This document shows, one piece after another, positions 21,363 through 49,146 of a stretch of DNA of 64,000 nucleotides. The stretch is from Herminiimonas contaminans (GTDB lineage Bacteria > Pseudomonadota > Gammaproteobacteria > Burkholderiales > Burkholderiaceae_D): the NCBI RefSeq assembly GCF_015645465.1, contig NZ_JADOEL010000003.1:62001-126000 (forward strand), written 5' to 3'. Every line of letters begins with the position of its first letter. Within the stretch, counting starts at the first letter, position 1. The position numbers and the translations under genes were made by a program. The notes beneath the pieces are model-generated. The model searched no databases. It was given only the letters and a program-made list of their open reading frames with translations, and was not told the origin of the DNA.

Positions 21363-22604
21363 ATGAGTGAACCTAAACCGATGTTGAGTGTGGCCGAAGC
21401 CCTCGACTTCCTGCTTACTTCCGCCAAGAAAATTACCGAGACTGAAACCCTGGCTACGCTGGATGCGAACGGTCGCGTCCTGGCCGTTGCACAGGAGTCG
21501 CAACTGAATGTACCGCCAGTCGATAACACATCCATGGATGGCTATGCGGTGCGTGCTGCTGATTGCGCCAGCGGTGAGGCGGTCTTGCGTGTCAGCCAGC
21601 GCATCCCGGCCGGACATGTCGGCCAGCCACTAGAGGCTGGTTGCGCAGCGCGTATTTTTACCGGTGCCATGATCCCGCAGGGTGCGGATGCCGTCGTTAT
21701 GCAGGAAGTCTGTGTCGCATCCAAAGGTGCGGACGGCGACCTGGTCACGGTCAAACACGCCCCGGTCTCCGGCGAATGGATACGCCGTGCTGGTGAAGAT
21801 ATCCGTGCCGGCAGCACCATACTGACTGCAGGTCAGCGCTTGCGTGCGCAGGAACTCGGTCTGGCCGCTTCGGTCGGTCTGGCGCAATTGCCAGTGGTGC
21901 GCAAATTGCGCGTTGCGGTCTTCTTTACCGGTGACGAACTGGCGATGCCGGGAGAAGTGCTGAAACCAGGCGCTATCTACAATTCGAATCGCTTCACATT
22001 GCGTGGCCTGCTGGAAAACCTCGGCTGCGAAATCAGCGATTTCGGCATCGTGCCGGACACCCTGGCCGCAACCCGCGACACCTTGCGCCGCGCTGCCGCT
22101 GAAAACGACCTGATCATCACTTCTGGCGGCGTTTCTGTCGGTGAAGAGGATCACATCAAACCTGCGGTCGAAGCCGAAGGCCATCTGAATATGTGGCAGA
22201 TCGCGGTCAAGCCGGGCAAGCCGCTGGCGTTCGGTGAAGTGAACCGCAGCGCCAAAGGTGGTACTGCTTACTTCCTCGGTTTGCCGGGTAATCCGGTGTC
22301 TAGTTTCGTCACCTTCATGCTGTTTGTGCGCCCATTCATCCTGCGTCTGCAAGGTGTCGAAAATGTGGCACCCAAGGCCTATCCTATGCGTGCTGACTTC
22401 AATCTGAACAAGGCCGACAAGCGCAACGAATTCCTGCGCGCAAAGATCAATGAGCAGGATGGCCTCGATTTATTTCCTAACCAGAGTTCGGGTGTGCTGA
22501 CCTCAACTGTGTGGGGCGATGGCTTGATTGATCATCCGTCGGGCAAGACCATAGCGGCCGGAGATACCGTGCGCTTTATTTCATTCAGCGATTTGATGTA
22601 CTGA
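21363..22604 (+). CDS. moeA: Molybdopterin molybdenumtransferase MoeA
   Basis: Inserts molybdate into adenylated molybdopterin. The 413-residue protein has the domain-entry PPVDNTSMDGYAVRA (about 52-66), IFTGAMIPQGADAVVMQE (about 98-115), and the MoCF-binding domain with FFTGDELAMPG and TSGGVSVGEEDH. The end has the domain IV beta-barrel. First gene of a compact moeA-moaD-moaE-crcB unit with gaps of 7 and 18 bp and one overlap. Confidence 0.96.
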   Translation: MSEPKPMLSVAEALDFLLTSAKKITETETLATLDANGRVLAVAQESQLNVPPVDNTSMDGYAVRAADCASGEAVLRVSQRIPAGHVGQPLEAGCAARIFTGAMIPQGADAVVMQEVCVASKGADGDLVTVKHAPVSGEWIRRAGEDIRAGSTILTAGQRLRAQELGLAASVGLAQLPVVRKLRVAVFFTGDELAMPGEVLKPGAIYNSNRFTLRGLLENLGCEISDFGIVPDTLAATRDTLRRAAAENDLIITSGGVSVGEEDHIKPAVEAEGHLNMWQIAVKPGKPLAFGEVNRSAKGGTAYFLGLPGNPVSSFVTFMLFVRPFILRLQGVENVAPKAYPMRADFNLNKADKRNEFLRAKINEQDGLDLFPNQSSGVLTSTVWGDGLIDHPSGKTIAAGDTVRFISFSDLMY

Positions 22605-23945: not shown

Positions 23946-26528
23946 ATGCGTCTCGATAAACTAACTACCAAGCTGCAGGAAGCGCTCGCTGATGCGCAAA
24001 GCCATGCAGTCGGTAACGACAATCAATATATAGAACCGGTACACGTACTGGTCGCCCTGTTAAGCCAGGACGACAGCAGCACGCGTTCACTGCTGCAACG
24101 TGCCGGTGCCAACATCAATGGTATGACCACTGCGCTGCGCAGTGCACTGGATCGCCTGCCCAAGGTTTCGGGCAATGGCGGCGAAGTGCAGATAGGGCGC
24201 GACCTCAGCTCCCTGCTGAACCTGGCCGACAAAGAATCGCAGCTGCATGGCGACCAGTTCATCGCCACCGAAATGGTCTTGCTGGCCCTGACCGAAGACA
24301 AATCGGAAGCAGGCAAGATTGCACGTGAAAACGGCCTGACGCGCAAAGCGCTGGAAGCCGCGATCAAGGCCGTGCGCGGCAGTTCGAAAGTGGATTCGGC
24401 GGATGGCGAAGGCCAGCGCGAAGCCCTGAAAAAATACACGCTGGACCTGACCGAGCGCGCCCGTATCGGCAAGCTGGACCCTGTCATCGGTCGTGACGAT
24501 GAGATCCGTCGCGCGATCCAGGTATTGCAACGTCGCTCGAAAAACAATCCTGTCCTGATCGGTGAGCCTGGCGTTGGTAAAACCGCCATCGTCGAAGGCC
24601 TGGCACAACGTATCGTCAATGGCGAAGTACCGGACAGCCTGAAAGGCAAACGCGTACTGTCGCTGGATATGGCGTCGCTGCTGGCGGGTGCCAAGTACCG
24701 TGGTGAATTCGAAGAGCGGCTGAAAGCAGTCCTGACCGAGCTGGCCGAAGATGAAGGCCAGACCATCGTCTTCATCGATGAAATGCATACGCTGGTCGGT
24801 GCAGGCAAGGCCGAAGGCGCGATGGACGCGGGCAATATGCTCAAACCGGCTTTGGCACGCGGTGAGCTGCACTGCGTAGGCGCGACCACGCTGGATGAAT
24901 ACCGCAAATACATCGAAAAAGATGCAGCACTGGAACGTCGCTTCCAGAAAATCATCGTGGCTGAGCCTACGGTGGAAGCAACCATCGCTATCCTGCGCGG
25001 CTTGCAGGAGAAGTATGAGCTGCATCACGGCGTTGATATCACCGATCCGGCTATCGTCGCAGCGGCTGAATTGTCGCATCGCTACATTACTGACCGCTTC
25101 CTGCCGGATAAGGCGATTGATCTGATCGATGAAGCTGCGTCCAAGATCAAGATCGAACTCGATTCCAAGCCGGAAGTGATGGACAAGCTGGACCGTCGCG
25201 TCATCCAGTTGAAGATCGAGCGTGAAGCGATCAAGAAAGAAAAAGATGAAGCGTCGCAAAAACGCCTGGCTTTGATCGAGGAAGAAATCGATCGCCTGGG
25301 ACGTGAGTACGCTGATCTGGAAGAAATCTGGAAAGCTGAAAAATCGTCGGCCCAGGGTAGCCAGCAAATCAAGGAAGAAATTGAAAAAGTCCGTCTGCAG
25401 ATGGAAGAGGCTACGCGCAAGAGTGATTGGCAGCGTGTCTCTGAGCTGCAGTACAGCACCTTGCCGCAGCTGGAAGCGCAGCTGAAGAATGCTGTCAAAG
25501 GCGAGGTATCGGGCGGCAAGCCGCAACTGGTACGTACGCAGGTAGGTGCGGAAGAAATTGCAGAAGTCGTTTCGCGCGCCACTGGTATCCCGGTTTCACG
25601 CATGATGACGGGCGAACGCGAGAAGCTATTGCAGATGGAAGATGCGCTGCATAAACGCGTGGTCGGTCAGCATGAAGCCATCGTTGCGGTCTCCGATGCT
25701 ATCCGTCGTTCGCGTGCAGGTCTGGGTGATCCGGATCGGCCATATGGTTCCTTCATGTTCCTCGGGCCTACCGGCGTTGGTAAAACCGAGCTATGTAAAG
25801 CATTGGCTTCGTTTATGTTCGATACCGAGGAATCGCTGATCCGTATCGACATGAGTGAATTCATGGAGAAGCACTCGGTCGCACGCCTGATCGGTGCACC
25901 ACCAGGTTATGTCGGTTACGAAGAAGGCGGTTACCTGACCGAGGCAGTACGTCGCAAGCCATACTCGGTGATCCTGCTCGATGAAATCGAGAAGGCGCAT
26001 CCGGATGTCTTCAACGTCTTGCTGCAGGTGCTGGATGATGGTCGTATGACGGACGGACAGGGACGTACGGTGGACTTCAAGAATACAGTGATCGTCATGA
26101 CTTCCAATCTGGGTTCGCACAAAATCCAGTCGATGGAAGGCAATGAACCTGCGCTGATCAAGATGGCCGTCATGGCGGAAGTGCAAGGTCATTTCCGTCC
26201 TGAGTTCATCAACCGTATCGATGAAATCGTGGTCTTCCATGCACTGGATGAGAAGAACATCGGTTCGATCGCGAAGATCCAGTTGCAAGTATTGGAGCAA
26301 CGCCTGGCACGCATGGATATGTCCATGGATGTCACCGAAGACGCGCTGCAAAAAATCGCAGAAGCCGGATTCGATCCTGTGTATGGTGCACGTCCTCTGA
26401 AACGTGCAATCCAGCAGCAGATCGAGAATCCTTTGTCCAAGGCTATTCTGGAAGGGAAGTTTGGGCCTAAGGATGTGATTGCGGTGGATGTGCGGGATGG
26501 CGATCTGGTGTTCACCAAAAAGATGTAA
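23946..26528 (+). CDS. clpB: ATP-dependent disaggregase ClpB
   Basis: Hexameric AAA+ chaperone that extracts proteins from aggregates with DnaK/DnaJ/GrpE; 860 aa, full length. The N-domain (Clp repeats) covers 1-145. AAA-1 has GEPGVGKTA near residue 206, the coiled-coil M-domain covers roughly 400-530, and AAA-2 has GPTGVGKTE near 607. The C-terminal [21 protein letters not shown] is clear. It has a sigma-32 promoter and a terminator. A decayed copy of its last 60 codons lies 130 bp downstream. Confidence 0.98.
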
Positions 26529-26557
26529 ATGCATCGCTAACTGCATGCAGTAGTACT

Positions 26558-26593
26558 AAGCCCGCCATGTGATGAACATGGCGGGCTTTTTTA
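26558..26593 (+). terminator. Terminator after clpB
   Basis: AAGCCCGCCATG-TGATGAA-CATGGCGGGCTTTTTT: a 10-bp stem with a 7-nt loop and T run. Confidence 0.95.
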
Positions 26594-26603
26594 TGCGCTG
26601 CGT

Positions 26604-26660
26604 TCAGGTACTTATGCTCATCAGGCTGGCATTGTCGTCGACTTCTGCCTTATTGATACA
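26604..26660 (-). pseudogene. Remnant of a putA 3' end (last 18 codons)
   Basis: On the minus strand this short piece reads C-I-N-K-A-E-V-D-D-N-A-S-L-M-S-I-S-T-stop. The intact PutA at 28787 ends CINTTAAGGNASLMTIKH, so the two match at Cys-Ile-Asn, Ala, Asn-Ala-Ser-Leu-Met and Ile, and about 40 of 52 bases agree. It is not attached to any further putA sequence; a clpB fragment begins directly next to it. It marks the original clpB-putA junction. Confidence 0.85.
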
Positions 26661-26845
26661 TGTTCGTGGATGTCACTGAAGCCGGGTCCGCCCCTGTGTA
26701 TAGTGCGCGCGCTATGAAGCGTGCGATCTAGAAGGAGTCGAAAATCCTTCATGTAAGGCTATTTTTGAAGGGAAGCACGGCTCTCAATATGTGATTTTGT
26801 TTGATGTGAAGAATGACGAATCGCTATTTGCGAAGGATAGCGCGT
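26660..26845 (+). pseudogene. Decayed duplicate of the clpB 3' end
   Basis: Starting at GTGGATGTCACTGAAG the sequence follows the clpB segment at about 26335-26525. Matching stretches are VDVTE, PVY-AR, KRAI, NP-KAI-EGK and VI-DV. Compared with clpB it lacks about eight codons (DALQKIAE), has an in-frame TAG after KRAI and a frameshift before NPSCKAIFEGK. The similarity fades near 26845. It is too diverged for a recent tandem copy and may derive from another strain or be an old relic. Confidence 0.85.
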
Positions 26846-26876: not shown

Positions 26877-27668
26877 CTATTGCGATAGTATTGGATACAG
26901 GATGTCTTCATCTGGGTGCTCTAGCTTCAATAAACTGCAAAGAGTTGCATTTTGCGGTTTTTCTGCAGCATAAAAGCCAATCACAGATCTTGGATAGTCA
27001 GCTATCTTGACGGCTAAATTATGGAGTTTGTAAATGTCGAAAGTGAATAAGCAAATTGATTGTCCATTGTCTAGTTTGTGCCAAGTGCAAATGTACTTAA
27101 ACCGCCCGTTGTAGGCGTAAATTGCATCGTGAGTTTCAGTACGTTGCGCAGTGCATAACTCATTTGAGAATTGATAAGTTTGTATTTTTTGTGAAAATGG
27201 TTTGTTATTGTTCGCCGTGTCTGCTTCAGGAATTGGGTAGTGGATATCGTGAACTGTCTCGACCTTCAGAAATGACTTGTAGAGTAGTGCGTGCATGCAT
27301 CGAATAATGCGATAAGCAAGTGGACGTATTGGGAGTTTTGTTATTCCTTGATATATGCCCTGTTCGCTTTTGATATCTATGAAATTTAGTTTTGCAAGAT
27401 GTTTTGGATTGGATGACTTCTCGGTTCCATGTAAAGCATCAAGAAATATTGACATTGTTTCGTCAGCTAGGTGCCATTTGTGATTGCAACGTTCATGAAC
27501 TTGCAGCTTGATTGGATAGTTTGTTCGGTCTGGTTTGGAAAAGAAACTCTGTGGCGGACAATGATCGTCATTTAGGAGTGAACCATCTTTTAACGTAGTT
27601 CCACATAGATAACAAAAGTCAGGTTTTTTCCAACGCTGAAATTGTGATTGAGTGAGAAGGCGTGGCAT
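26877..27668 (-). CDS. HNH-endonuclease-like protein (263 aa)
   Basis: The N-terminal 70 residues look like a zinc-ribbon HNH/Endo VII-type nuclease core: Cys19-x2-Cys22 (FCYLCGTTL), then NDDHCPPQ with His36, then ERCNHKWHL with Cys61 and Asn62. Metal-binding Cys pairs with DDH and C-N are typical of HNH families. The remaining 190 residues match nothing I know and may be a sensor or partner domain. Third gene of the accessory operon. The product would cut DNA or RNA if active, but this is inferred from the motif alone. Confidence 0.6.
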   Translation of the reverse strand: MPRLLTQSQFQRWKKPDFCYLCGTTLKDGSLLNDDHCPPQSFFSKPDRTNYPIKLQVHERCNHKWHLADETMSIFLDALHGTEKSSNPKHLAKLNFIDIKSEQGIYQGITKLPIRPLAYRIIRCMHALLYKSFLKVETVHDIHYPIPEADTANNNKPFSQKIQTYQFSNELCTAQRTETHDAIYAYNGRFKYICTWHKLDNGQSICLFTFDIYKLHNLAVKIADYPRSVIGFYAAEKPQNATLCSLLKLEHPDEDILYPILSQ

Positions 27669-27740: not shown

Positions 27741-28163
27741 TCACTGAAGCTCCTTTCTAATTATGGACATAATGAAGTCTGCTGTTTCTTTATTGCGGAC
27801 ATTCTGTTTTTTAGATTCAGATTCAACATCTTTTTCTATCCACGTGATCCGATATTTTTTTGCGAGATTACTCACTGCCTGAGTAGTTTTTCCTCTCGAG
27901 CGAGTTGCACAGACGATGATGCGACAGTTTCGTTCTTGGAATAGTTTTAGGCTTTCAAAGATTCGACTACCTGGGTCTCCTTGACTTTCAATTCCAATTT
28001 TTACGCCATTGATTTTGACAATCAAGGATATGTCTTTCACACCGATGAACAATTTATCGAAAATAGCTTCTGGATATTCTTTGCGTAGTAATTGATATGC
28101 GAGTTTTATGCTTGTGCTTTTTCCCCTGTTGGAGACACCACGTACTGCGATTAAAGTTTTCAT
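27741..28163 (-). CDS. Small P-loop NTP-binding protein (140 aa)
   Basis: A compact P-loop protein. Walker A is RGVSNRGKSTS at residues 8-18; a possible Walker B strand VKIGIESQGDP follows near 54-64; CRIIVCATRSRGKT (near 82-96) resembles a second core strand with an Arg-rich loop. It is closest in feel to small nucleoside/polynucleotide-kinase-like P-loop proteins, but I cannot name a family. Second gene of the accessory operon, 26 bp after the 143-aa gene. The intact P-loop argues it is a functional gene. Confidence 0.6.
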   Translation of the reverse strand: MKTLIAVRGVSNRGKSTSIKLAYQLLRKEYPEAIFDKLFIGVKDISLIVKINGVKIGIESQGDPGSRIFESLKLFQERNCRIIVCATRSRGKTTQAVSNLAKKYRITWIEKDVESESKKQNVRNKETADFIMSIIRKELQ

Positions 28164-28189: not shown

Positions 28190-28621
28190 TTAAAGGGATG
28201 GTTTGCTAAAGGGCTTTTGATGAGATGCTAGATTTGCATATCTGGGCATTGCAAGGCGATGATAGGCGCTACTTACATCTGAAAGTCTAATCCCTAGACG
28301 AGATAGCTCTTCAGCGTTCCAGTTTTCGGGGGCTATCCAGAACTCAGCTTTGTGTTGGCATGCCATCGCTAGTTCTTCATCGATATGCCTTAGAGGAATT
28401 GCTGCCGCCGCCCAAACTTTAGCAAGTTTCGCTTCAGTTTTAGGATTTCTCGGTTTGCCGCGTTCTCTATCACGATAGTACAACTTCGTTTCAGTAAGTG
28501 CGATCGAAATGGCACTCAGTGCGTTGTCTTTAAGCTCCCTCTTGTCTTTTGATAGAGTTGCTATTGGTCCGAGCAAATTTATTAATTTTTCTAATACATA
28601 TTCAAGCATAAATTTATCCAT
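28190..28621 (-). CDS. Unknown protein, first gene of the accessory operon (143 aa)
   Basis: Not recognised. Residues 1-60 appear helical and amphipathic (LEYVLEKLINLLGPIATLS), the middle is basic (YYRDRERGKPRNPKTEAKLAK), and the second half contains HIDEELAMACQHKAEFW and RLGIRLSDVSSAYHRL. No signal peptide, membrane span or metal motif. It starts MDKFMLEYV, shortly after an AT-rich 165-bp region that must hold the operon promoter; I saw no clear -35/-10 pair there. Confidence 0.55.
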   Translation of the reverse strand: MDKFMLEYVLEKLINLLGPIATLSKDKRELKDNALSAISIALTETKLYYRDRERGKPRNPKTEAKLAKVWAAAAIPLRHIDEELAMACQHKAEFWIAPENWNAEELSRLGIRLSDVSSAYHRLAMPRYANLASHQKPFSKPSL

Positions 28622-28786
28622 GATAAAAATTGTAGATACGAAAAAATTCTTACAACATACTAATCTGATGTTCGCCTAGAATCATGTTCTAAACACATGC
28701 ATGTAAAAATATAGCGCTATCGGAATAGTGACTCAGTTATCGAATCTAGTTGTCTTTCAAGTTGTCTGATGACGCTTTTATCTTAC

Positions 28787-31700
28787 TTAGTGTTTTATGG
28801 TCATTAGGCTCGCATTGCCGCCAGCTGCTGTCGTATTGATACACAGGGCACGCTCGTTGACGAGACGCCATAACGGAACCGGATGCGGGAATTCTGTCGT
28901 CACGACAAGCACGATGGCGCCTTCGCGCGCTGCCAGTGCGATGCGCAGATCAGCTTGGTGCTGGTCGCGTTCCAGCAAGGCGAGACGCAGCTCCTTGCAT
29001 GCATGCTGATGCTCTATAGTGGTGATGCTGGCGCGCAAGTGTGCCGGGAAGTCTGGTGGTACCAGCAATGCAGTGCTTTGTAATAATACGACCTGGTTGC
29101 CGGTCGCATAGACTGCGAACATTTGATTCAGCAATGCTGGCGTTGTTTCAGCGACGCACAGCACGGCACCGCGTGCAGCAAAACCTAAGGTATTGATCTC
29201 GCCAGTGACGCCGTGTAAGCGGATGATTTTTCCTGATGGACTGGTGCGCACATATTCGACGATGAGCTGGCTAAGTGTTTGCTCTTGGCGCGGAATACTC
29301 CAGGTCAGCAGTTCTGCCAGCGCAGTTTCTATGTGCCGTGCTTCTTCTCTGTCCTCGTCGTCCGTTTTCTCTATGCTTACGGTGCCGCTATGTTGCAGGC
29401 GTTTCAGATAGAACGGGCCGCCTGCCTTGGGGCCGGTACCGGATAGGCCCTCGCCACCGAAAGGCTGTACGCCGACTACCGCGCCGACGATGTTGCGGTT
29501 CACATAGATATTACCGACGTGGGCGTGATGCGTGACGTAAGCCGTGGTTTCGTCTATGCGCGTGTGTATGCCCAGGGTCAGGCCAAAGCCGGTGGCATTG
29601 ATATCCCTGATCAATTGCGGCAAGTCGTCGCGTTGATAGCGCAGCACGTGTAGTACCGGGCCAAACACTTCGCGTTTCAATTCGGCGATGCTGTCTATCT
29701 CCAGGACGCAAGGTGCGACAAAGGTGCCGTTTTCAGCTGTTGCCGGTAACGTCAATTCATACATTTTTTTATCTGCGTTTTGCGCGATGTAGTCCCGCAG
29801 ATGTCCTTGGGCTTCTGCGTCTATCACTGGCCCTATATCTGTCAGCAGGCGATCAGGATTGTTGATGTGCAGTTCCTGCATTGCACCTTGCAGCATATGC
29901 AGGGTTGGCTCGGCGATGTCGCTTTGCAGGCACAAGACACGCAGCGCCGAACAACGTTGGCCTGCACTGTCGTAAGCAGAGCTGATGACGTCACGTACCA
30001 CCTGTTCGCATAGGGCCGACGAGTCGACGATCATCGCATTTTGACCACCGGTTTCTGCAATCAACGGTATGTCCCTGGCTTCCGCGATGCTGCGTTGTGC
30101 GAGCTTGCGATTAATGCTGCGTGCGACTTGCGTCGAGCCGGTGAAGACCACGGCTGAAACACGTTCGTCCGTGACCAACTGCGCACCGATAGTCTCGCCA
30201 TTGCCGGGCAGATAGAGCAAAACATTTTCCGGTACACCGGCCTGGTGCAATAGCTGTACTGCGCGGAGAGCGATCAGCGGTGTTTGTTCGGCTGGCTTCG
30301 CAATGACGACATTGCCTGCTGCCAGTGCTGCGCTGAGTTGGCCGGTAAATATGGCTAAGGGGAAATTCCATGGACTGATACAAGCGACCAGTCCTAGCGG
30401 CGGGGTTGCATTCGATGCAATGGACTGTGCGCTGTAGTAGCGCAGGAAGTCGATAGCCTCGCGCAGTTCGCCGATTGCATTCGGCAAGGTTTTGCCCGCT
30501 TCGCGTACGGCCAGTGCAATGAACTCGTTTGCATGTTGCTGGAACAAATCTGCGGCACGCAGCAAGATGGCGGCTCGCTGCTCCGCGGTGTGCGCTTGCC
30601 ATGTACTCATGCCTGTCACTGCATGAGCGATTGCCTGCTCGGCATCAAGCTGGTTCGCGTGCGCTACCGTGCCGACCACATCGTTATGATCGGCCGGATT
30701 ACGTATCGCGATGGCTGCGCCATATATTGCTGCACCCGTCAAAGGCAGCGCATGCCATTGTTGTTTGCCGTAGGCGCTTAAGCTTGCGCTGAGTGCACGC
30801 AAGGCATGTTCATCGCTCAGGTCTATGCCGCTGGAATTTTGCCTTTCCGCGCCATATAGGTCGACCGGTAAGGGCAGCGCCGGATGTGGCTGACCTGCGT
30901 ACTGTGCAGCGAGTGCAACCGGGTCTTGCAGCAGCTGGTCTATGCTGATGTGCTCATCGACGATTTGATTGACGAATGACGAGTTGGCTCCATTCTCCAG
31001 CAGTCGTCGCACCAGATAGGCGAGCAAGGTTTCGTGGGTACCGACCGGTGCATAGATGCGGCAGGGCACATGCAAATGTTCCGGGCCGACGATCTGGTCG
31101 TACAAGGTTTCGCCCATGCCGTGCAGGCACTGGAACTCATAGTCCGTTACCTGCAATGCTTGCGCCTGTTGATAGATGGCGGCGAAGGTCAGCGCGTTGT
31201 GGGTGGCGAATTGCGGATAGATGACGTTGTTGGCAGCGAGCAGTTTTTGCGCACAGACCAGATAGGAGAGGTCGGTATAGGCTTTACGCGTATAAACCGG
31301 ATAGCCGGACAAACCATCGACTTGCGCCCGCTTGATTTCGGTATCCCAGTACGCACCTTTGACCAGTCGAACCATGAATTTCCGGCCGCTGCGATGAGCC
31401 AGATCTATTAGGTAATTGATGACGTAAGGGCAGCGTTTTTGATAGGCCTGTACGACGAAACCCAAGCCATCGTAACTTGCCAGCTCAGGATCAGCCGCCA
31501 GCGCTTCCATCAAATCCAGTGACAGTTCCAGTCGGTCGGCTTCTTCCGCATCAATGTTGAGACCGATGTCGTACTGCTTTGCCAGCAGTAACAGTTGTTT
31601 CAGGCGTGGCAGTAGTTCCTGCATGACACGTGTACCTTGCGCGCGCGTATAGCGCGGGTGCAGCGCCGACAACTTGACGGAGATACCGGGACCGTTGCGT

Positions 31701-32485
31701 ATGCCGCGTTGTTCGCTGGCTTTGCCGATTGCGTGTATCGCGGCGGTATAAGATAGATAGTAAGCCTCCGCATCGGCTACTGTCATCGCCGCTTCGCCCA
31801 GCATATCGTAGGAGTAGCGATAGCCGTGTTTTTCATGTTCACGACTGTTTGACAGCGCTTCATCTATCGTTTGTCCAGCGACAAACTGGCTGCCCAGCAT
31901 ACGCATGGCGAGATCGACGCCTTTGCGTATCAGCGGTTCGCCGCCTTTGCTGATGAGACGGGTCAGGGCGGCACCCAGGCCATCTTCGCTGGCGCTGTGC
32001 AGCAATTTGCCGGTAATGAGCAAGCCCCAACTGGCGGCGTTGACGAAGAGTGAGGGCGAGGTGCCGAGATGGCGTTGCCAGTCACCTTTGCTGATCTTGT
32101 CTGCAATCAGGCGATCCGCAGTCTGGTGGTCGGGTATGCGCAGCAGCGCTTCGGCCAGGCACATCAGGGCGATGCCTTCTTCTGACGACAGCGAGAATTC
32201 ATGCATCAAAGCGTCGACACCAGATGCGCGGCTGCGTTTGGCGCGTACACTTGTCACCAGTTGCCGTGCAAGCGCCTGACTGGCGCTTTGCAACGCCGGA
32301 TTGTTTGTGACCTGCTTCAGCAAATTTTGTACGGCGGTGATTTCATCCAGCCGATAAGCGCGGCTGATGGTGTCACGTAATGGCGATGGCGTGCTGATGG
32401 TTTCTTCAGCAAAAGCCGAGAATGGCGAGGAATAGGAGAGTGAGGACATTGATGCACCGTGTTTGAGTGAATCATCCGATTCCAT
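28787..32485 (-). CDS. putA: Bifunctional proline dehydrogenase / P5C dehydrogenase PutA
   Basis: Oxidises proline to glutamate: an FAD-dependent proline dehydrogenase barrel followed by an NAD-dependent aldehyde dehydrogenase. At 1232 aa it lacks room for the N-terminal ribbon-helix-helix of E. coli PutA (about 1320 aa), so it is probably not an autorepressor. PRODH motifs include RLVKGAYWDTEIKRAQ near residue 370. The ALDH part has SPWNFPLAIFTGQ, AETGGQNAMIVDSS and the nucleophile segment SAGQRCSALR. The C-terminus GGNASLMTI is the PutA end. Another start (MSSLSYSS, 12 codons in) is possible; neither has a strong Shine-Dalgarno. Confidence 0.95.
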   Translation of the reverse strand: MESDDSLKHGASMSSLSYSSPFSAFAEETISTPSPLRDTISRAYRLDEITAVQNLLKQVTNNPALQSASQALARQLVTSVRAKRSRASGVDALMHEFSLSSEEGIALMCLAEALLRIPDHQTADRLIADKISKGDWQRHLGTSPSLFVNAASWGLLITGKLLHSASEDGLGAALTRLISKGGEPLIRKGVDLAMRMLGSQFVAGQTIDEALSNSREHEKHGYRYSYDMLGEAAMTVADAEAYYLSYTAAIHAIGKASEQRGIRNGPGISVKLSALHPRYTRAQGTRVMQELLPRLKQLLLLAKQYDIGLNIDAEEADRLELSLDLMEALAADPELASYDGLGFVVQAYQKRCPYVINYLIDLAHRSGRKFMVRLVKGAYWDTEIKRAQVDGLSGYPVYTRKAYTDLSYLVCAQKLLAANNVIYPQFATHNALTFAAIYQQAQALQVTDYEFQCLHGMGETLYDQIVGPEHLHVPCRIYAPVGTHETLLAYLVRRLLENGANSSFVNQIVDEHISIDQLLQDPVALAAQYAGQPHPALPLPVDLYGAERQNSSGIDLSDEHALRALSASLSAYGKQQWHALPLTGAAIYGAAIAIRNPADHNDVVGTVAHANQLDAEQAIAHAVTGMSTWQAHTAEQRAAILLRAADLFQQHANEFIALAVREAGKTLPNAIGELREAIDFLRYYSAQSIASNATPPLGLVACISPWNFPLAIFTGQLSAALAAGNVVIAKPAEQTPLIALRAVQLLHQAGVPENVLLYLPGNGETIGAQLVTDERVSAVVFTGSTQVARSINRKLAQRSIAEARDIPLIAETGGQNAMIVDSSALCEQVVRDVISSAYDSAGQRCSALRVLCLQSDIAEPTLHMLQGAMQELHINNPDRLLTDIGPVIDAEAQGHLRDYIAQNADKKMYELTLPATAENGTFVAPCVLEIDSIAELKREVFGPVLHVLRYQRDDLPQLIRDINATGFGLTLGIHTRIDETTAYVTHHAHVGNIYVNRNIVGAVVGVQPFGGEGLSGTGPKAGGPFYLKRLQHSGTVSIEKTDDEDREEARHIETALAELLTWSIPRQEQTLSQLIVEYVRTSPSGKIIRLHGVTGEINTLGFAARGAVLCVAETTPALLNQMFAVYATGNQVVLLQSTALLVPPDFPAHLRASITTIEHQHACKELRLALLERDQHQADLRIALAAREGAIVLVVTTEFPHPVPLWRLVNERALCINTTAAGGNASLMTIKH

Positions 32486-32588
32486 CTTACATGCAAGTCG
32501 TGCAAATGTCGCAATGGCGTTGGCTAAGAATCTGTGTTGCCTGGATTTACCTCACTCTAGTTTTTTGATTCTTCAACTAACTGGATAG

Positions 32589-33035
32589 CTAACCAGGAAT
32601 TTCAGGCTCGACGAGTGTCGCGAGTTGAAGCAAAGACTCCTGCCATCCGAGGTAGCACATCTCGACGGGGATAGCTTCAGGTATTCCTGCTTGCACAATA
32701 TTGATTTCGGTTCCGCACAAGACTTTGCTTAAAGTCACCGTCACCTGTATTTCACCGGATAAGTTTGGATTATCGAATTTATCTGTGTAGCGAATTTTTT
32801 CATCCGGTACAAGTTCCAGATATTCGCCACCGAAAGAATGCCCGCTTCCTGTGTTGAAATTCGAAAACGACATCTTGAAAATCCCGCCGACCTTGGCTTC
32901 CAGATGATGAACCTTACATGTAAAACCGTAAGGTGGTAGCCACTTTGCCAGTGCGCCAGCATCCAGAAATGCACGATAAACACGCTCTGGTGGCGCACGA
33001 AGCACGCGATGTAGTTTTACTGTACCTGTAGGCAT
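32589..33035 (-). CDS. SRPBCC (AHSA1-type) ligand-binding protein
   Basis: A 148-residue START/Bet v1-fold protein of the Aha1-domain group. Start MPTGTVKLHRVLRAPPERVYRAF is preferred because AAGGAG lies 7 bases upstream; the frame extends 24 codons further but without support. LDAGALAKWLPPYGFT and the end GWQESLLQLATLVEPEI are typical of the group. Ligand unknown. It stands between putA and metR, all on the same strand, with no evidence of shared function. Confidence 0.85.
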   Translation of the reverse strand: MPTGTVKLHRVLRAPPERVYRAFLDAGALAKWLPPYGFTCKVHHLEAKVGGIFKMSFSNFNTGSGHSFGGEYLELVPDEKIRYTDKFDNPNLSGEIQVTVTLSKVLCGTEINIVQAGIPEAIPVEMCYLGWQESLLQLATLVEPEIPG

Positions 33036-33137
33036 ATCAATTCTCCTTCTTACGCAGATTTGATTCGGCTTTGAGACGGTTTGTTGTTGCCTACTATGAC
33101 GTTGCAAACTTTTTGTCAGGTAAGCAATAACCCGATA

Positions 33138-34058
33138 TTAAAGCAATTCCACACTATCCAGATTCAGGTAACAGCTTTCGCGCGTGGTGCTCACAAAGTC
33201 CGCCAGATAAGGCTGTTCCGATACCTCGGGCAGGCAGGCGGCATACAGTCGCCCCGTCAGGCCTTCACGGGTGATGCGCTTGGCTTTGACGTAATCACGG
33301 TTCAGATAGTTTTGTGCCGCCCACACCGGCAAGGTTGCGATGCCGCGTCGGCTGGCAACCAGTTGCAGCATGGCGACGGTCAGTTCGGTCGTGCGGCGTG
33401 CGACTTGCACACCGGCCGGCTTGAGCACCTGGCGTACCACGTCCAGCATATCGTCCGGTACCGGGTAAGTGATCAGTGTGTCGCCGATGAAGTCCTCGGC
33501 AGTGAGGAATTCCTTGTCGGCCAGTGGATGGTCGTGCGCTACCAGGGCGACGATTTCAAAACGGAACAGTGCGTGGTAATCGACTTTTTCATCAGGATCG
33601 ATTTCGGCGACGATGGCGACGTCGGCACGGTGTTCATATAGCAGACCGACCGGATCGGCCTGGAAGCCGGAGACGATGTCTAGCTCGACTTCCGGCCAGC
33701 GGCCGCGGAATACATCCATCGCCGGCATCAGCCAGTCGAAGCAGGTATGGCATTCGACTGCGATGCGTAATTGTCCGGCGACGCCTTGCGCCAGCCGCAC
33801 CAGGTCGCGCTCGGTCTCGGCGACTTGCGGCAAGACGGTATCGGCCAGCTTCAGCAAGCGTTCACCGGCCGGGGTGAAGCGCACCGGTGTGGTCTTGCGT
33901 TCAAACAGCGTCGTGCCGTGATGATCCTCTAACTGCTTGATTTGATGCGATAAAGCAGATTGGGTGACATTCAGCAGTGAAGCCGCACGGAGCAGGTTGC
34001 CTGCTTCGCGCAGGGCCAGCAGGGTTTTCAGGTGGCGTAATTCAAGGATGGATTGCAC
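33138..34058 (-). CDS. metR: LysR-family regulator MetR
   Basis: A 306-residue LysR-type regulator; the helix-turn-helix is at about residues 18-60 (NLLRAASLLNVTQSALSHQI). The C-terminal effector domain begins LRIAVECHTCFDWLMPAMD, a MetR hallmark associated with homocysteine sensing. Divergent placement beside metE, 100 bp away, supports MetR. The start is GTG (MQSILELRHLKTL), the conserved family N-terminus. It should activate metE under methionine limitation. Confidence 0.92.
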   Translation of the reverse strand: MQSILELRHLKTLLALREAGNLLRAASLLNVTQSALSHQIKQLEDHHGTTLFERKTTPVRFTPAGERLLKLADTVLPQVAETERDLVRLAQGVAGQLRIAVECHTCFDWLMPAMDVFRGRWPEVELDIVSGFQADPVGLLYEHRADVAIVAEIDPDEKVDYHALFRFEIVALVAHDHPLADKEFLTAEDFIGDTLITYPVPDDMLDVVRQVLKPAGVQVARRTTELTVAMLQLVASRRGIATLPVWAAQNYLNRDYVKAKRITREGLTGRLYAACLPEVSEQPYLADFVSTTRESCYLNLDSVELL

Positions 34059-49056: not shown

Positions 49057-49146
49057 GGAAGTGTGGCCGAGTGGTTGAAGGCACCAGTCTTGAAAACTGG
49101 CGACGGTTTATCCCGTTCGTGAGTTCGAATCTCACCGCTTCCGCCA
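49057..49146 (+). tRNA. tRNA-Ser (anticodon UGA)
   Basis: Ninety bases including an encoded CCA. The acceptor stem pairs GGAAGTG with CGCTTCC (one G-T pair, discriminator G), the D-arm is GGCCGAGTGG-type, and the anticodon arm CCAGT-CTTGAAA-ACTGG places TGA in the loop. A long class II variable arm (GACGGTTTATCCCGTTC) identifies serine. The T-arm is GTGAG-TTCGAAT-CTCAC. It is followed within 45 bp by a repeat also present at 61.1 kb. Confidence 0.96.

Follow-up and report, generated by a model that had tools for sequence, protein, structure and literature searches.

To judge from its relatives, Herminiimonas contaminans descends from an ancestor in which clpB and putA converged on a spacer of about 80 bp, and a three-gene cassette has been inserted between them. 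The insertion is accompanied by a scar: behind clpB and the ancestral spacer lie a second putA 3' end (putA'), a second clpB 3' end (clpB'), the genes orf1, orf2 and orf3, and only then the intact putA (Table 1). This order is best explained by a one-sided (homology-facilitated illegitimate) recombination, to which we give an even chance and which would have placed an empty allele next to a filled one. Cargo exchange by recombination in flanking core genes is usually traceless; a scar in which the empty allele survives beside the filled one would be a rare physical record of such an exchange, with its order and a rough age. All coordinates refer to the window, the whole stretch of 64,000 nucleotides analysed here.

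Table 1 Features of the clpB–putA locus in the window
Feature	Coordinates	Strand	Basis
clpB, intact, 860 aa	23946..26528	+	ORF; protein 91-99% identical to clpB of relatives with most of the gene available
clpB-putA spacer, ancestral, with terminator-like hairpin	26529..26602	.	80% identity with the empty G011 junction in 81 columns; the hairpin shares 94% identity with G002
putA' fragment, last 18 codons and stop, in frame, ancestral TGA	26603..26660	-	match to the intact putA end; tail ...NASLMSIST*
clpB' fragment, decayed 3' end, ~codons 792-858, with ~24 nt deletion, frameshift and stop	26660..~26840	+	shuffle-controlled match; repeats D1, D2, D4; alignment with 12 relatives
orf1, 263 aa, orphan; Cys/His spacing zinc-finger/HNH-like by eye	26877..27668	-	ORF
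orf2, 140 aa, small protein; P-loop-like GxxxxGKST	27741..28163	-	ORF
orf3, 143 aa, phage-associated family of unknown function	28190..28621	-	phrog_12412 match
Right insert edge: final two putA codons and stop, insert-derived (KH, TAA)	28787..28795	-	homology with 9 relatives extends no further than the Ile codon 28796-28798
putA, intact, 1232 aa	28787..32485	-	ORF; clpB neighbour in 9/9 putA-bearing relatives of the genus

Two duplicated gene ends beside an A+T-rich insert

Aligned with the intact putA end (28795-28843), putA' at 26612-26660 is identical in 39 of 49 positions, with a score of 48 against 25 for the best of 200 shuffles (blastn E 5e-7). Extended to its stop on the minus strand, 26603-26660 reads ...CINKAEVDDNASLMSIST*. 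The two 49-nt copies form the direct repeat D3, which flanks clpB' and the cassette. The best matches of putA' are to the intact gene of its own genome (39/49), to relative G003 (37/48) and to relative G011 (33/44).

The clpB fragment aligns at 26678-26819 with 26361-26503 (107 identities, 33 mismatches and 5 gap positions), and its score of 96 compares with a maximum of 27 in 200 shuffles (blastn E 6e-19). Its initial stretch, 26660-26684, matches 26319-26343 at 84%, so the deletion of about 24 nt in clpB' is real; the fragment also has a 1-nt frameshift and an in-frame TAG. Homology can be traced to approximately codon 858 of the 860 codons of clpB, near 26840, beyond which the clpB tails of the relatives diverge. 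The initial annotation had recognised both fragments after clpB, along with the deletion, the stop and the frameshift, and both indeed stand far above all shuffles. They are 73-80% identical to the intact gene ends.

The same annotation described three foreign-looking genes and, after them, the intact putA 3' end. The open reading frames are as it described them, and the insert is A+T-rich, with a G+C content of 0.38-0.42 in segments within it against 0.51-0.57 in the flanks. The intact putA end, however, is not fully ancestral. Both putA' and the gene in all nine relatives end in TGA after about two variable codons, whereas the intact putA of the window ends in KH and TAA; the last two ancestral codons and the TGA have been lost there and kept in putA'.

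Of the aligned sites, 128 do not vary among six functional clpB copies; clpB' is changed at 26 of these, namely at 12/49, 8/53 and 6/26 sites of the three codon positions. The differences between the H. contaminans clpB and that of G011 number 3, 1 and 13 (61 sites per position). Since the changes in clpB' are spread evenly over codon positions, unlike those between the two intact genes, the fragment has decayed without selection.

The ancestral junction in relatives

We compared 13 genomes of the genus, H. contaminans included, one per species. All of them have clpB and ten have putA, our genome among them, with no putA match in G004, G005 and G012. In all nine putA-bearing relatives the two genes are convergent neighbours, putA running off the contig in G003. 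Measured between the last aligned codons, they are separated by 77 bp in G002, 85 bp in G011, 132 bp in G001, 144 bp in G007, 506 bp in G003, 510 bp in G009, 643 bp in G008, 700 bp in G010 and 1570 bp in G006; the junctions of G002 and G011 are empty. The genes converge in every one of these relatives and their junction is empty in two, so DNA entered an old junction. The initial annotation had supposed clpB and putA to be once convergent about 80 bp apart, which agrees with the two empty junctions, with the match of the fragment to clpB and with the adjacency of the genes throughout the putA-bearing relatives.

Outside the genus, putA matches were found in 52 searched genomes. In the 51 compared by eye (G066 was left out), clpB lies on another contig or more than 100 kb away, so the neighbourhood is, as far as seen, a trait of the genus. 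A contig scan with putA gave, among the matches listed, at least 80 loci from other genera and none from Herminiimonas.

In the corresponding intervals of the 12 relatives, three of which (from the genomes lacking putA) are simply the stretch downstream of clpB, only chance-level matches to a second clpB or putA 3' end were obtained. Nor is there a recognisable second spacer between clpB' and putA: the spacers of H. contaminans and G011 score 13-20 against the insert, with shuffle maxima of 23-28. Separately, the start of contig 24 of G003 (L030 1-310) bears a second clpB C-terminal piece (87% identity over 103 aa), which may be contamination or a duplicate.

Source and age of the clpB fragment

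A tree of clpB' with 12 relatives was built from a hand-paired alignment. The three attachments around H. contaminans and G011 reach AU p values of 0.66 to 0.72 and four deeper ones 0.05 to 0.14, none of the deeper placements falling below p 0.05. By identity, clpB' is matched by G011 at 112/149, by its own genome at 108/148, by G009 at 107/148 and by G003 at 106/143. At the 17 sites that separate the clpB genes of H. contaminans and G011, it agrees with the former at eight, with the latter at seven and with neither at two; of eight sites inferred to have changed on the H. contaminans branch, it carries that state at four only. The fragment could not be tied to a donor species: identities, informative sites and the AU test do not separate H. 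contaminans, G011 and their stem. By these comparisons, the DNA may or may not have come from another species.

The Jukes-Cantor distance of clpB' is 0.24. In six genes, H. contaminans and G011 differ at 0.21 to 0.37 of fourfold sites, or approximately 0.12 to 0.25 per lineage when the same correction is applied by hand. As these values are comparable, the scar is of about the same age as the divergence from G011; the comparison is rough, because codon usage in clpB may be constrained. The notion that the scar dates the insertion holds only loosely.

Origin of the scar

In a one-sided recombination, the left unit (clpB, the spacer and the start of the putA 3' end) would be the empty allele and the right unit (the clpB 3' end, the three-gene cassette and putA) the filled one. 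The two would have been joined by homologous exchange in one flank and by end-joining at the illegitimate joint putA'|clpB' at 26660. Either the cassette allele came in, anchored in putA, or the empty allele did, anchored in clpB, in which case the old clpB would have been pushed aside and its 3' stub left behind.

One-sided recombination ranks first for us because the right unit has its edges at the positions that a functional clpB would require. As homology ends just where the relatives differ, clpB'-cassette-putA resembles a normal filled allele whose clpB was once functional, comparable to those of G006 and G010. Spacer and putA stop are both ancestral in the left part, up to putA', no second spacer occurs in the right part, and the fragments are similarly diverged (26/128 for clpB', 10/49 for putA'). 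The placement of clpB' at the node of H. contaminans and G011 allows a close relative as its source. Homologues of dprA and comEC are present, a weak support since E. coli, among the controls, also matches. On the other side, clpB' is no nearer to another relative than to the clpB of H. contaminans or G011, and no genome was found with clpB-cassette-putA and without the duplication, orf1 being seen, among the genomes examined, in its own only. The putA comparisons below, which give no sign of a more distant donor, and the described rarity of such recombination also count against it. The joint at 26660 is plain, any original microhomology being hidden by decay.

A serious rival, possible but distinctly less probable, dispenses with foreign flanks: a tandem duplication of about 340 bp, reaching from the 3' end of clpB across the spacer into that of putA, would have been followed by entry of the cassette, which removed the second spacer. 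The observed order, including two intact outer genes, is precisely what it yields. It also accords with a clpB' that has no tie to another relative, whose placement as sister of the H. contaminans gene is not rejected (AU p 0.66) and which is split almost evenly over the 17 sites described above. However, the second spacer would have to be gone exactly between clpB codon 858 and the Ile codon of putA, a coincidence for a clpB copy that was never needed. A second copy of the whole unit, spacer included, was not found in the locus, and the spacer may have gone as the cassette came in. That clpB' has the own state at just half of the eight own-branch sites also speaks against self-duplication, weakly, as the sites are few.

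The 49-nt putA repeats around clpB' and the cassette invite two further readings. Formally, the same product would result if a circle with putA'-clpB'-cassette had integrated through one crossover within the short homology to putA (or clpB); we consider this improbable, for a prior circle-making step is needed, the insert has no replication or plasmid gene, and no related plasmid was found. An A+T-rich insert bounded by direct repeats of a gene 3' end also suggests att sites, those of a site-specific island in the putA 3' end with the repeats as attL and attR. This we hold to be very improbable: there is no recognisable integrase in the insert, no tRNA gene lies nearby (the only one is a tRNA-Ser at 49057), and the presence of a clpB 3' end in the element, directly next to clpB, would have to be accidental. 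Chance similarity or an assembly error is hardly credible. The genome is a draft of 56 contigs, but the window, and with it the locus, is internal to a contig of 446,884 bp; the matches score well above all shuffles, and copies diverged to this degree from the intact ends are not expected from misassembly within one genome.

Of the initial proposal that DNA of a relative recombined in and left both ends, the insertion into an old junction thus stands. A foreign donor does not follow from it, as clpB' attaches at the point between H. contaminans and G011 and self-duplication gives the same product. Within one-sided recombination, it is conceivable, if rather unlikely, that the intact clpB is the newcomer and that all that is left of the native chaperone gene, displaced by an incoming empty allele, is the stub at 26660-26840. 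If so, the fossil would record the replacement of a core-gene allele, in a genus that repeatedly refills the clpB-lysR region without integrases.

A plastic zone from clpB to lysR

Across the related genomes, the clpB-putA interval is empty in G002 and G011 and holds different content in several others. It measures 77-1570 bp in nine relatives and 2258 bp in the window; for comparison, we used the five junctions from thrC to clpB, which span -1 to 211 bp in 10 relatives, and the putA-lysR interval. G003 and G009 have a gene of 128-138 aa, glyoxalase-like by eye, whose copy in G003 has no Pfam match. About 70 bp of the 3' end of this gene persist in G001 (53/71 against G009; score 52, shuffle maximum 26), a deletion scar within the interval. 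G006 and G010 share a gene of 126-127 aa, accompanied in G006 by an extra DUF1275 gene (3.7e-39). A DUF4124 gene occupies the interval of G008 (6.3e-8), and a similar gene lies downstream of clpB in G005.

The putA-lysR interval is equally variable, its length ranging between 34 bp (G008) and 2703 bp (G002), so the plastic zone extends from clpB to lysR. In this interval (28787-34058 in the window when putA and lysR are included), a gene for a TonB-dependent receptor is seen in G011, with a like-sized homologue in G002, a DUF1275-like gene in G001, and different short genes in G009 and G010.

No integrase or transposase was recognised in the cassette of the window or in the cargo examined in relatives. 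The idea of an insertion hotspot used without an integrase is therefore partly supported by these sequences: cargo does differ among relatives, but putA-lysR varies as much, and the neighbourhood is seen only in the genus.

Gene-by-gene and sliding comparisons with three relatives revealed a mixed ancestry. At fourfold sites, moeA (21363-22604) and lysR (33138-34058) are slightly closer to G002, and thrC, clpB and putA to G011. In the sliding comparison, H. contaminans is nearer to G011 than to G002 in the 3' half of clpB and in all putA bins from 28700 to 32000. With parts of moeA and lysR nearer to one relative and the clpB 3' half and putA to the other, genes of the neighbourhood have undergone recombination among relatives. 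A clean donor tract is not marked by any bin, and since putA groups with G011 against G002 in every bin, its nearest relative never switching, a tract of a more distant donor is not seen in this gene. In the bin 29000-29300, differences private to H. contaminans are in excess (34, against 13-23 in the remaining putA bins).

Relation to known systems

Integrase-less hotspots and scars of this type are already in print, and the locus reveals no new mechanism. In an excerpt of PMC5361080, homology-facilitated illegitimate recombination is described as rare and is put forward as the origin of T6SS immunity arrays in Vibrio and of Rhs 3' ends. The resemblance to that account is close: one homologous flank, one end-joined flank, and a displaced 3'-end stub beside the newcomer (PMC5361080, same excerpt). 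Here, however, the stub belongs to a core chaperone gene, the cargo consists of three genes without known function, and the event is known from sequence alone.

Many hotspots without mobile elements were reported in a survey of 80 species, according to the excerpted text of PMC5635113. Such hotspots, exchanged via flanking core genes, share with our locus a variable content between two conserved genes and the lack of a recognised integrase (PMC5635113, same excerpt). An ordinary double crossover leaves no duplicated ends, though, whereas this locus has them. Genomic islands in gene 3' ends are likewise flanked by direct repeats (attL/attR) of the gene 3' end; unlike them, the insert here comes with no integrase and would contain the 3' end of a second core gene. 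We found no paper joining clpB, putA and Herminiimonas.

Cargo genes

For orf1, no family match above cut-off was obtained in Pfam, PADLOC, PHROGs or NCBIfam. Its own copy is the only one in 392 genomes of the family and 369 of the class, genome, viral, plasmid and phage searches returned zero matches, and a single-sequence fold has a mean pLDDT of 32.7, too low for a usable model. Against PDB sequences, neither orf1 nor orf2 gave anything meaningful.

The product of orf2 has a weak match to a PHROG ATPase (8e-4, residues 1-24). Besides its own genome, three of the 369 class genomes encode relatives, at 45%, 39% and 29%. The third gene, orf3, belongs to phrog_12412 (5e-21); its sole relative in the 392 family genomes besides the own copy is found in G419 (49%), and a Klebsiella phage protein matches at 28.5% (E 2e-6). 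None of the three genes matches a PADLOC defence model, and no integrase is found among them in Pfam, PADLOC, PHROGs or NCBIfam.

In the stretches listed around the orf2 and orf3 relatives of G419, G664 and G569, neither clpB nor the remaining cassette genes occur. The orf2 relative of G664 (L127 450-1890) stands beside a gene that by eye is reminiscent of TIR proteins or of deoxyribosyltransferase-like ones, an arrangement also seen in certain defence loci.
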